A DNA stretch of 6,855 nt from positions 1 through 6,855 of the forward strand of contig JACPSX010000095.1 of assembly GCA_016193065.1 (NCBI GenBank). Reading direction: 5' to 3'. Each line of letters begins with the position of its first letter. The first letter of the stretch is position 1. Shown here piece after piece: positions 1-6,855 of the stretch. Source of the stretch: Candidatus Tectimicrobiota bacterium (GTDB lineage Bacteria > JACPSX01). The notes under the pieces are model-generated. The model was not told the origin of the DNA. It saw only the letters and a list, made by a program, of their open reading frames with translations, and did not search any database. Made by a program: the position numbers and the translations under genes.

Positions 1-964
1 AAAGCTCAGGGCGGATCTCCAGTTTACCCACCTCCATATGGGAATAATCCAGAATGTTCATGATCAGGCCCTGGAGGTATTTGGCGTTCTGATGGATCGT
101 CGCGATGTCCTCCTGCAAGCGCTCCGTGAGGGGCCCGTCAATCCCTTTGAGAATGATGCCCGAAAATCCGATCATGGCATTGAGAGGAGTGCGGAGCTCA
201 TGACTCATGCTGGCCAGGAAGGTGGACTTGACGCGGTTTGCCTTCTCCAACTGGCGGTTGGTCTCCCGCAGGCTTTTGTTCAGATTCTCGAGATCCCGGG
301 TCCGCGCGGCGACCTGGTCTTCCAGGATGCGGTTCATGTTCTGCACCCGGGAAAACAGGCGGGCATTGGCCACGGCCTGGGAAGCTTGCGAAGCGATGAT
401 CGTGAGGAGACGCTGGGCGTTGTCATCAAAAGCCGCCGGCTCGGAATGGCTTAAGTTCAACACCCCGATGACCTCGTCCCCGTTCTTGAGGGGTAGACAA
501 AGCAAGGAGACCACGGAATCGCCGTAGGGAGGCCCTGTGACGAAGCGCTCATCCTGCCTGGCGTCGGACAGGAGGCAGATCTCTCCGGTCTTCGCCACGG
601 TTCCCGCAATTCCTTCCCCCCACTTGAAGTAAACCGTGGCGGGATCTTCCGGCGTGTAAAACGACGCCTGCTCGTCATCGATCCCTCGGGCCGCTACCAG
701 AGAGAGACACACCTTGGCATCATCCGCCAGCATGAGCGAGCAGTTTTCGGCCCCAGTTTCCTCACAGACAATGGTGAGCAGTTCCTTACAGGTCCGGGGG
801 AAATCGTTCCAGAACTTGAGGCCGTCGGCCACGCGGCGAACGACCGAGATCTCTTCGACCTTTTCCTGGAAACGCAGCGAGGTCTCTTGGAGTGTGCGGG
901 CATAGAGATCCCGCTCCTTTAGCAGACTGTGGATCCTGTCCTGGAGGGCAATATCCCTCAACAT
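1..964 (-). CDS. GAF-domain sensor histidine kinase, 3' end beyond the window
   Basis: My own translation gives 321 uninterrupted codons from the ATG at 964-962 to the window edge. Residues about 1-45 are helical. Residues about 47-200 look like a GAF sensor domain, with typical segments such as KWGEGIAGTVAKTG and LCLPLKNGDEVIGVLNLSH. Residues about 203-250 form a charged coiled coil. The HisKA dimerisation domain follows, with the H box FLASMSHELRTPLNAMIGFS and the phosphoacceptor His255. The ATP-binding domain, and any receiver domain after it, lie outside the window. No membrane segment is visible, so a cytoplasmic kinase sensing a small ligand or redox signal is likely; the ligand cannot be told. 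The start is well supported: AGGAG lies 8 nt upstream and overlaps the TAG stop of the HDOD gene, leaving only 11 nt between the genes. It is probably co-transcribed with the HDOD and receiver-kinase genes. Confidence 0.93.
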   Translation of the reverse strand, partial: MLRDIALQDRIHSLLKERDLYARTLQETSLRFQEKVEEISVVRRVADGLKFWNDFPRTCKELLTIVCEETGAENCSLMLADDAKVCLSLVAARGIDDEQASFYTPEDPATVYFKWGEGIAGTVAKTGEICLLSDARQDERFVTGPPYGDSVVSLLCLPLKNGDEVIGVLNLSHSEPAAFDDNAQRLLTIIASQASQAVANARLFSRVQNMNRILEDQVAARTRDLENLNKSLRETNRQLEKANRVKSTFLASMSHELRTPLNAMIGFSGIILKGIDGPLTERLQEDIATIHQNAKYLQGLIMNILDYSHMEVGKLEIRPEL

Positions 965-975
965 GGCACCGGCTC

Positions 976-1872
976 CTATCCCAGAACTTGCAGGAATTCT
1001 TCGATGTTCGCCCGCTCTTTGCTCAGGTTCATGGACAACACCAGCAGCGCATCGTCATCCAGGTTGAGAATCTTCCGGCTGTTGAGACGGATGTTTGGCA
1101 CCAGCGGATCCCCCCCCGAACCGATGCCGACCTTCCGTGTGATGGAGTCACCCACATGGACAAGGGATGCCAGCAAGATCCCATGAGGTTCGCTGTCCTC
1201 CGGGTGGTGGTGATGGTGAATGGATTCCAGGAGCAAAGGGGGGAACTTCCAGTGTTGCCCCAGCCAGAATCCCACGTCGTCGTGCCCGACCCCCAGGAGG
1301 ACCTCCTTCTCGACTTCCACGATCGGCCGGGAAGCCTCCCGGATGGAGTTCGCCACCTGCTGATATTCCTCGGGGAAGATGCGGTCCAGAACGACCTTGC
1401 CGATATCGTGGAGAAGTCCCGCCAAAAAAGCAGTTTCCGGGTCCGGGTAGCGCACCTGTTTGGCCAGCAACTCGCAGGCCTTGGCGCAGCCAATGGAATG
1501 GAGCCAGAATTTCTCCCGGTCGAAAAACCGGGAATCGCTCCGGCCCAAAACATCAAACACCGAGGCGCTCAGTGCCAGGCTTTTCACCGTTTCAAAACCC
1601 AACACGACCACAGCCTGGGGGATGGAGGTGATTGTCCTGGAATACCCGTAAAAGGCCGAGTTGGCCAGCCGGAGAATCCGCGAAGAGATGGACTGATCCT
1701 TGGCAATCATGCGCCCCAGGTCCTTGGCGGAGGACTTCTCATCCTTGGCGATTTGCATGATCCTGGTGACAATCACGGGTAGGGTAGGAAGATCCTTCAA
1801 GCGGGCCATGAACCTCTTTATTTCGTGTTCGCTGAACTGACTCTCCGTGCGCGCTTGCTCAAACATGCTCAT
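976..1872 (-). CDS. HDOD domain signalling protein
   Basis: This is a 298-residue cytoplasmic protein of the HDOD family, a non-GYP relative of HD phosphohydrolases found in bacterial signal transduction. The HDOD domain spans about residues 24-225. It begins with the usual LKDLPTLPVIVTRIMQIAKD segment, then has the conserved ILRLANSAFYG and AVVVLGFETVKSLAL stretches. Some HD-type residues remain: His125, the HDIGK motif at 155-159, GVGHDDVG at 194-201, and a run of five histidines at 219-223 before PE. Whether it hydrolyses anything is unknown; many family members act as non-catalytic regulators, including in cyclic di-GMP and kinase pathways. The last 70 residues are less typical. The ATG at 1872 overlaps the TGA of the upstream receiver-kinase gene (ATGA), with AGGAG just before it. 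A second ATG two codons later is an alternative start. The overlap implies translational coupling, so the protein probably works in the same pathway as the two flanking kinases. Confidence 0.93.
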   Translation of the reverse strand: MSMFEQARTESQFSEHEIKRFMARLKDLPTLPVIVTRIMQIAKDEKSSAKDLGRMIAKDQSISSRILRLANSAFYGYSRTITSIPQAVVVLGFETVKSLALSASVFDVLGRSDSRFFDREKFWLHSIGCAKACELLAKQVRYPDPETAFLAGLLHDIGKVVLDRIFPEEYQQVANSIREASRPIVEVEKEVLLGVGHDDVGFWLGQHWKFPPLLLESIHHHHHPEDSEPHGILLASLVHVGDSITRKVGIGSGGDPLVPNIRLNSRKILNLDDDALLVLSMNLSKERANIEEFLQVLG

Positions 1873-3008
1873 CCCTCTCCTGAGTCCAGTCCGGCAATTG
1901 CCGAGTCCCCCCAGCCCGGAAGAGGGAATACAACCCCGAAGGTCGCGCCCTCCCCGGCAACGCTCTCGACCTGGATAGTCCCCCCGTGAGCTTTAACGAT
2001 CCCGTAAGAGACAGACAGGCCCAGCCCGGTGCCATGACCTTCCTTCTTGGTCGTAAAGAAGGGTTCAAAGATATGCTTCACGATCCCCGGCTCGATCCCG
2101 CTGCCGTTGTCCTTGAAAAAGATCGATACCGTCTTGTCTCCACGACGGGTCTCAAGCTGATTCTTAAGGAAGGCCAGCGTTTTCTCCACAACCTCGCCAA
2201 TGTCCACCTCCTGATCCAGGGAAGGTTTGGCGCGGTGCATCTCCAGCAACTGGCGGACGATGCGGGAGATCCTTTCCACGCTCTCCTGGAGCAATCCGAC
2301 GTATTCCCGATGAGGATGTTCCGGCGGGATTTCCCGCCACAAGACTCCCAGGAAGTTTTCCATGGCCTGCAAGGGGTTATTGATCTCGTGAGCCACGCTG
2401 GCCGCCAGCCTGCCCACGGCGGCCAGCTTGGCGGATTGCACCAACTGTTCCTGGAGCCCCTCGAGCTGGCGGGATCTTTCCTCCACCCGGCTCTCCAGAT
2501 CCCGGTTGAGGGCCGTAAGCTCGGCGATCTTCTCCTCCAACCGGTTCACCAGCCGGCTGCTGTATTCCCTCAGGTAGTGAACCTCCTCCTGGTCGGGGAT
2601 TTGCTCGGTTTTCCCGGTCAGAAACTCTCGAAGCTGGCGGGGGAACTTCTCGATATCGATGGGTTTTCCCAGATACCCCGTGCACCCGCATGCCAGGCTT
2701 CTCTCCCGGTCCCCTGCGCTCACGTTGGCCGTGAGGGCCACAATAGGGACTCCGCGGAGCTCCTCCATTCCCCTCATCTTGGTGGAGGCCTCGTAGCCGT
2801 CCATCCCCGGAATGTTGATGTCAACCAGGATCAGGTCAGGCTTAATTTCCCGGGCCATGGCGATGCCCGCGATCCCGTCGGCGGCTCCATAGACCACATA
2901 ACCGTGGGGTTCGAGAACACGCTGCACGAGCAAAAAATTATCCCGGTTATCCTCAATATAAAGGACCTTCTTGGCCGGCACCTTTCCGGCAGACCCGTTC
3001 TCTTTCAA
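1869..3008 (-). CDS. Receiver-histidine kinase fusion with incomplete ATP-binding domain
   Basis: With the TTG start at 3008 the protein has 379 residues. A receiver domain occupies about residues 14-130: acidic pocket in VLYIEDN, phosphoacceptor Asp63 in LILVDINIPGMDG, then ALTAN and YLGKPID. A coiled coil (about 145-195) leads to HisKA with His207 in SVAHEINNPLQAMENF. The C-terminal part keeps a G1 box (DNGSGI, from Asp300), an F box (IFEPFFTTK) and a G2 box (GTGLGLS). The usual N box is missing: sequence passes from FLKNQLETRR directly to GDKTVSIFFKDNG, so His207 to Asp300 is only 93 residues, against roughly 130-150 in related kinases. The reading frame is intact. The TTG at 3008 is chosen because GGAAGGGG lies 7 nt upstream. 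A TTG at 3041 and a GTG at 2981 are alternatives. It overlaps the HDOD gene downstream by 4 nt. Catalysis by this protein alone is doubtful; phosphotransfer with the neighbouring GAF kinase is an inference. Confidence 0.9.
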   Translation of the reverse strand: MKENGSAGKVPAKKVLYIEDNRDNFLLVQRVLEPHGYVVYGAADGIAGIAMAREIKPDLILVDINIPGMDGYEASTKMRGMEELRGVPIVALTANVSAGDRERSLACGCTGYLGKPIDIEKFPRQLREFLTGKTEQIPDQEEVHYLREYSSRLVNRLEEKIAELTALNRDLESRVEERSRQLEGLQEQLVQSAKLAAVGRLAASVAHEINNPLQAMENFLGVLWREIPPEHPHREYVGLLQESVERISRIVRQLLEMHRAKPSLDQEVDIGEVVEKTLAFLKNQLETRRGDKTVSIFFKDNGSGIEPGIVKHIFEPFFTTKKEGHGTGLGLSVSYGIVKAHGGTIQVESVAGEGATFGVVFPLPGWGDSAIAGLDSGEG

Positions 3009-3067
3009 AAGGACACCCCTTCCAGAGCGAACCGGCGGCAAATCGCAGTCCGTCCATTCTTACTCAT
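3005..3067 (-). other. Possible 20-codon leader ORF before the receiver-kinase
   Basis: An ATG at 3067 opens a 20-codon frame ending in TGA at 3007-3005. The TGA overlaps the TTG start of the receiver-kinase (TTGA). The peptide would begin MSKNGRTAICRR. There is no good SD before its ATG, and the kinase start has a strong SD of its own, so this may be chance. The 142-nt gap from the lepB stop also holds an 11-nt palindrome, CAAGGACCTTG, at 3080-3090. I see no clear terminator or sigma70 promoter there, so it is unclear whether the signalling operon is read through from lepB. Confidence 0.15.
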
Positions 3068-6079: not shown

Positions 6080-6487
6080 CTAAGCTGTCTCGGGCGATCT
6101 TACGGTGTGCCGGTGCATGAAACCCACCAGGGCATCCCTATGCTCTTCGCGAATCAGCACAAAGGAGCCGACCGCTGCCACGATCTCCTCCCCGTTGTAT
6201 TCCCTTACCATCATCCGGATCACCTTCACCACGGCCCGCACCGTCTCCCGCATCTCCGGGTGAACGATCTCCAGGTAGAGAAAAGTCCCAATCTCAATCG
6301 TCCGATCCGTCAAGAAGGCAAGCCCGGCCCCGCTGAAGTTCACCCCCTGTCCTTCGCGCAGGGGTCCGAGCAGGTAGGAGGATTCTCCTTGCTTGAGAAT
6401 CTCCCGGTAGTGGACAGGGATCTGCAGGTCAAGGCGAAAGAATGCTCGCCGGTTAGAGGATCCCACGTGAGTGGGGTTGATTCCCAT
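6080..6487 (-). CDS. PilZ domain protein, likely cyclic di-GMP receptor
   Basis: This 135-residue protein is essentially a single PilZ domain. The two ligand-binding signatures of the family are both present: an RxxxR motif as RRAFFRLD (Arg14 and Arg18) and an NxSxxG motif as NFSGAG (50-55). These residues bind cyclic di-GMP in characterised PilZ proteins, so binding is likely here. The segments IEIGTFLYLEI and VVKVIRMMVREYNGEEIVAAVG fit the beta-barrel strands. There is no signal peptide or membrane segment, so it should be cytoplasmic. It lacks the N-terminal YcgR domain of the enterobacterial flagellar brake. The start is clear: AAGGGAG overlaps the TAA stop of the motB-like gene and lies 5 nt before the ATG, with 10 nt between genes. 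Co-transcription with a flagellar stator gene suggests that it links cyclic di-GMP to motor output; that role is inferred from position. Confidence 0.93.
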   Translation of the reverse strand: MGINPTHVGSSNRRAFFRLDLQIPVHYREILKQGESSYLLGPLREGQGVNFSGAGLAFLTDRTIEIGTFLYLEIVHPEMRETVRAVVKVIRMMVREYNGEEIVAAVGSFVLIREEHRDALVGFMHRHTVRSPETA

Positions 6488-6497
6488 GTCTGCTCCC

Positions 6498-6855
6498 TTA
6501 CTCTTTCAGAATAATCATTTCCACCCGACGGTTTCGGGCCCGGTTTTCCGGTGTCAGTTCAAACCGCGGCTTGTAACTGGCATAGCCCACCGCGGAGAAG
6601 CGCTGCGGGGGGAGACCGGTCTCTTCGATGAAAAACCGCACGACACTGCTGGCGCGGCCGCTGGAAAGCTCCCAGTTGGAAGGGTACTGGGGGGTGTTGA
6701 TCGGCACGTCGTCCGTGTGGCCTTCCACCAGAACCTTGTACGGGACCCTTTTCAAGAGATCCGCCATGCGGAACAGGAAAGGCCGGAACCCCCCTTCGAT
6801 TGCCGAGGTTCCAGACTCGAAGAGAACCCCCCCGCTGGCATAGAGGATAATCCCC
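6498..6855 (-). CDS. motB: Flagellar motor stator protein MotB, C-terminal part, 5' end beyond the window
   Basis: The frame is open from the window edge to TAA at 6500-6498, giving 118 visible residues that make up an OmpA-like peptidoglycan-binding domain. An N-terminal piece resembles the MotB strand before this domain (VLFESGTSAIEGGF). The core follows as VEGHTDDVPINTPQYPSNWE, then LSSGRASSVVRFFIE, VGYASYKP and NRARNRRVEMIIL. Asp48 (GHTDD) and Arg67 (SGRAS), counted from the first visible residue, match the pair that contacts the peptidoglycan diaminopimelate in OmpA-like domains. The TDDVPINT and NWELS wording is typical of MotB rather than Pal or OmpA. In MotB this domain anchors the stator to the cell wall while the missing N-terminal membrane helix forms the ion channel with MotA. 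The plug and channel Asp cannot be checked here. A motA gene just upstream is expected but not visible. Confidence 0.87.
   Translation of the reverse strand, partial: GIILYASGGVLFESGTSAIEGGFRPFLFRMADLLKRVPYKVLVEGHTDDVPINTPQYPSNWELSSGRASSVVRFFIEETGLPPQRFSAVGYASYKPRFELTPENRARNRRVEMIILKE

Follow-up and report, generated by a model that had tools for sequence, protein, structure and literature searches.

The window, by which we mean the whole stretch of DNA analyzed, is the entire contig C195 (6855 bases). The genes and features of concern here lie on its minus strand:

1869..3041, minus strand: ORF for a Rec-controlled histidine kinase (REC-coil-HisKA-HATPase_c) without the N-box segment (ORF listing and Pfam)
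2388..2390, minus strand: codon of the phospho-acceptor His218, in the H box HEINNP with the ExxN motif E219-N222 (position computed; motif read from the sequence)
2142..2153, minus strand: putative deletion junction, codons ETRR (residues 297–300), where 48 residues (144 nt) are absent relative to near kinases (alignments and residue counts)
1917..2144, minus strand: C-terminal remnant of HATPase_c with the G1 (DNGSGI), F (EPFFTTKK), and G2 (GTGLGL) boxes (HATPase_c match, profile positions 34–110)
976..1872, minus strand: HDOD-domain protein, its ATG overlapping the kinase stop (ATGA) (Pfam PF08668, E 7e-65)
2..964, minus strand: GAF-HisKA sensor kinase, cut by the contig end ahead of its ATPase domain (Pfam)

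The kinase ORF encodes 390 aa and is open from 3041 to 1869 with zero internal stops; the listed start is TTG, and a GTG slightly downstream is an alternative. Pfam places REC at residues 26–133, HisKA at 210–271, and HATPase_c at 300–375. The REC phospho-Asp is Asp74 (in LVDINI); residue 218 is the His of the H box and residue 311 the Asp of G1, and the F and G2 boxes start at residues 326 and 337. An N-terminal REC domain with its phospho-Asp, a helix, HisKA, and HATPase_c occur in that order, and judged by its sequence the protein has the architecture of a Rec-controlled histidine kinase of the LvrB kind. LvrB of Leptospira (PMC13269768, PDB 8vc9) has the same Rec-signalling helix-DHp-CA order and a similar length, and 8vc9 is the second-best PDB sequence match to the window protein. 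However, LvrB possesses a full CA domain, and it becomes competent for autophosphorylation once its Rec is phosphorylated (PMC13269768). The window protein is not LvrB itself, because it scores 126.6 bits with the NCBIfam LvrB model NF047466, far below the cut-off of 500. The nearest relative of its REC domain and linker is L002 940-2037 in genome G034 (50% over residues 16–204), which has an apparent HD-GYP output in place of the kinase, a pattern that suggests swapping of the domains that follow a common REC and coil.

Because the ATG of the HDOD gene overlaps the kinase stop, these two genes are probably in one operon, and the arrangement suggests that the GAF-HisKA gene belongs to the same operon. 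The GAF kinase is perhaps a partner of the window kinase, a proposal that comes from its position. A stretch of contig C2 was considered as the continuation of the truncated GAF kinase and was rejected, since it encodes a different GHKL ATPase. Elsewhere in the window, positions 6080-6854 encode a PilZ-like protein (just under the Pfam cut-off) and an OmpA/MotB-type C-terminal domain, with lepA and the signal peptidase I gene downstream of them.

An earlier note on this DNA had claimed that the kinase lacks the N box of its ATP-binding domain while staying in frame, the protein passing directly from TLAFLKNQLETRR to GDKTVSIFFKDNGSGI. That junction is present exactly as quoted, and the claim is borne out by the uninterrupted ORF together with a HATPase_c match that runs solely from profile position 34 to 110 of 111, versus a start at profile position 3 in a near homologue. 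Aligned with the nearest kinases (42–51% identity over shared columns), the window protein reads KNQL-ETRR-GDKTVS-IFF at the junction, and the distance from KNQL to the same strand is 58 residues in three near kinases versus 10 in the window protein, a difference of 48 with no further gaps. A local HMM left 46 profile positions (101–146) unmatched, and the note's estimate of 40–60 lost residues was therefore right. In the window kinase 93 residues separate the H box from G1. The initial set of homologues has a median spacing of 148, and among the closest ones several have 141; one listed distance shorter than that of the window kinase proved to be a regex mis-hit within another motif. The E of ETRR is encoded at 2153-2151 and G301 follows at 2141, the exact breakpoint being ambiguous inside the ETRR codons (2142-2153). 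Nucleotide microhomology at the breakpoint is plausible, and homologues carry TR-type residues close to the right-hand end of the segment lost here. The lost part comprises one beta-strand, the loop connecting it to the N box, the helix of the N box (NLILNA type), and then the next strand, with two or three strands lost altogether. Of the N, G1, F, and G2 boxes of a complete Bergerat CA domain, the N box is absent and the others are present.

What remains is well preserved, as the note had also observed: HEINNP, DNGSGI, EPFFTTKK, and GTGLGL are all kept. All near-invariant residues outside the gap (22/22) are retained too, including the ATP-binding ones of G1, F, and G2. By agreement with the consensus, the CA remnant ranks 49 of 176 and the DHp part 51 of 176, in columns derived from homologues chosen for their likeness to the window protein, a choice that somewhat favors it. 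The remnant thus fits the consensus about as well as a typical homologue does and is no worse in this respect than DHp. Third-position GC shows no step at the junction and resembles that of the neighboring genes. Since the ATP-binding residues of G1, F, and G2 show no decay, the evidence favors a deletion that would be fairly recent, or an artefact; the apparent recency comes from comparisons with distant sequences that show no decay, and such comparisons cannot put a date on the event. The conserved remnant could reflect selection, if it still binds a partner or nucleotide.

A profile was built from related kinases, with the window protein left out, and was run on the collected ORFs to score N-box coverage. 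The N box was covered in 184 of the 185 distinct kinase ORFs matching both sides, the sole exception being the window protein, and a general alignment failure is not the cause, because the same profile covers the N box in all the others. The same genome contains 30 HATPase_c matches, all of which begin at profile positions 1–7 except that of the window kinase. When 386 genomes were searched with a junction-spanning query, the best matches listed mostly ended or began at the junction, and full-length kinases gave split matches. No second clear case of N-box loss was found among the matches listed from these 386 genomes, in a search that scored the best 8 candidates per genome and could miss rare cases. 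Apparently gap-free full-length matches in G046 and G052 were rejected as second cases, since neither lacked the N box in the profile test, and L004 (G046), read directly, contains FMNLTGNA. Junction-crossing matches in G168, G356, G310, G381, G187, G330, G198, and G327, among others, likewise gave none without an N box in that test. The viral contigs searched yielded distant kinases only. The lineage of the organism is sparsely sampled, and its genome is the sole representative of its phylum among the genomes compared. The alignment of homologues that the earlier note had proposed found the N box in all the other kinases compared, and among these sequences the loss is, to judge from these alignments, derived and private to one assembly.

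Structure prediction of the C-terminal domain, another of the note's proposals, gave a corresponding picture. AlphaFold2 models of the window protein and of a full-length control were both single chains made with the same 59 sequences, and they illustrate rather than prove folding. In the window model the DHp hairpin is intact, and the helix preceding the ATPase core is followed by three strands and one longer helix only, whereas the control has extra strands (100-106, 113-115, and 139-148) and the N-box helix (117-134). Mean pLDDT is similar in the two models, although pTM is 0.45 for the window protein versus 0.69 for the control. Structural alignment matches the CA remnant to known CA structures, among them 3sl2 (Z 8.6, rmsd 2.1, 74 residues).

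We consider it probable that the locus carries a real, fairly recent, single in-frame deletion of ~144 nt in an ordinary Rec-controlled histidine kinase, one that would have killed autokinase activity. The ancestor would have had REC, a signalling helix, DHp, and CA, and the deletion would have taken two or three beta-strands and the N-box helix from the CA domain. In the Bergerat fold, losing the N-box Asn and central strands should abolish Mg-ATP use. With the N-box Asn and a portion of its central sheet lost, the window protein almost certainly cannot use ATP and is predicted neither to bind Mg-ATP nor to autophosphorylate. One partial reason for retaining the frame may be that the overlapping HDOD gene needs it for its own translation. 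As REC and the DHp His/ExxN are intact, phosphatase or reverse phosphotransfer activity like that of EnvZ-N347D could persist, and by this analogy residual activity of either kind is possible.

It is unlikely, though well within reason, that the deletion is instead an artefact of assembly or strain mixture, in which the dominant allele would have an N box, the contig having been built along a chimeric read or along a deletion path from a minor strain. The genome is fragmented and incomplete (294 contigs, 86% complete), the deletion is private to this one assembly, and the boxes are intact, as they would be in a working kinase. Against this, the frame is preserved, which a random deletion manages one time in three; the junction has only short imperfect repeats, as elsewhere in the region, and no long direct repeat able to cause a collapse was found there; a search of the same genome found no further copy of the window kinase; and the other kinase ATPase domains of that genome are intact at the N-box end. 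A chimeric read or a minor-strain allele is nevertheless possible with the frame retained and no long repeat. A remnant CA domain that still binds ATP and phosphorylates, its missing parts supplied by the dimer partner or by another kinase, is very improbable: in its favor are the retained G1, F, and G2 boxes and the superposition of the remnant on CA structures described above, but the protein lacks the Mg-binding Asn and central strands, the pTM is low, and no precedent was found in the literature searched.

The protein might alternatively have been selected as an ATPase-less Rec-DHp protein that serves other kinases, perhaps including the GAF kinase encoded two genes further along, as a phosphatase or phosphotransfer partner; we regard this explanation as rather unlikely. 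It would fit the open frame, the preservation of the REC Asp, the DHp His, and the ExxN motif, the last being one version of the E/DxxT/N motif, which in HisKA kinases influences phosphatase activity (PMC5727384), and the overlap of the HDOD gene with the kinase gene. Quite doubtful is its fuller form, in which an otherwise unsampled phylum has a natural Rec-DHp protein that keeps a partial CA domain, lacking the N box, to act as a regulated module for phosphatase or phosphotransfer reactions, with links to the HDOD protein and the neighboring GAF kinase. Precedents for the general idea come from EnvZ, whose N347D form we take to be an N-box mutant. In PMC5727384 (its references 18 and 19), EnvZ without its catalytic domain is cited as a phosphatase and EnvZ-N347D as kinase-negative and phosphatase-positive. 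These EnvZ forms resemble the window protein in having lost the N-box Asn or the CA domain while keeping DHp intact, but they are a laboratory-made point mutant and a domain construct, whereas the window protein has a natural 48-residue loss. Further precedents are ChpT and PhyT/PhyP, kinase-like but non-kinase relatives with degenerated or atypical ATP-binding domains (PMC3433190, PMC5898713). Like the window protein they have a DHp with a phospho-His and are not expected to show ATP-dependent autokinase activity. These proteins, however, recur across species with CA domains that are degenerate or atypical, whereas in the window protein the ATP boxes are intact, a block of the fold is missing, and the form occurs in one genome. 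The DHp His is present and the near-invariant G1, F, and G2 residues are all conserved, and the window protein is on this evidence not of the ChpT/PhyT kind. RocA, a pseudokinase of group A Streptococcus (PMC6193603), is likewise kinase-like and thought to act without kinase activity, but it works through its membrane part and has another architecture. Long-term selection as a relay protein is unsupported because the ATP-binding boxes are undecayed, whereas known relay proteins have ATPase domains that have degenerated; in addition, the form was not found in any other genome compared, and the GAF kinase is tied to it by proximity only.

Among the three readings that the earlier note had offered, a recent deletion or an artefact is therefore favored over a long-selected ATPase-less relay, in view of the strict conservation of G1, F, and G2. 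The loss seems to be an isolated deletion, probably of recent date, or else a fault of assembly, rather than the mark of a new protein class, and the interest of the window protein is modest unless relatives or reads show that the form is maintained. If recent or artefactual, it would be a reminder that family models still label such a protein a histidine kinase: HATPase_c of the window kinase scores 64 bits versus a Pfam cut-off of 26. If the allele is real and fixed, it would be a natural case of a Rec-controlled kinase that a single block deletion has deprived of ATP use, and would offer a clean test of REC plus DHp alone.
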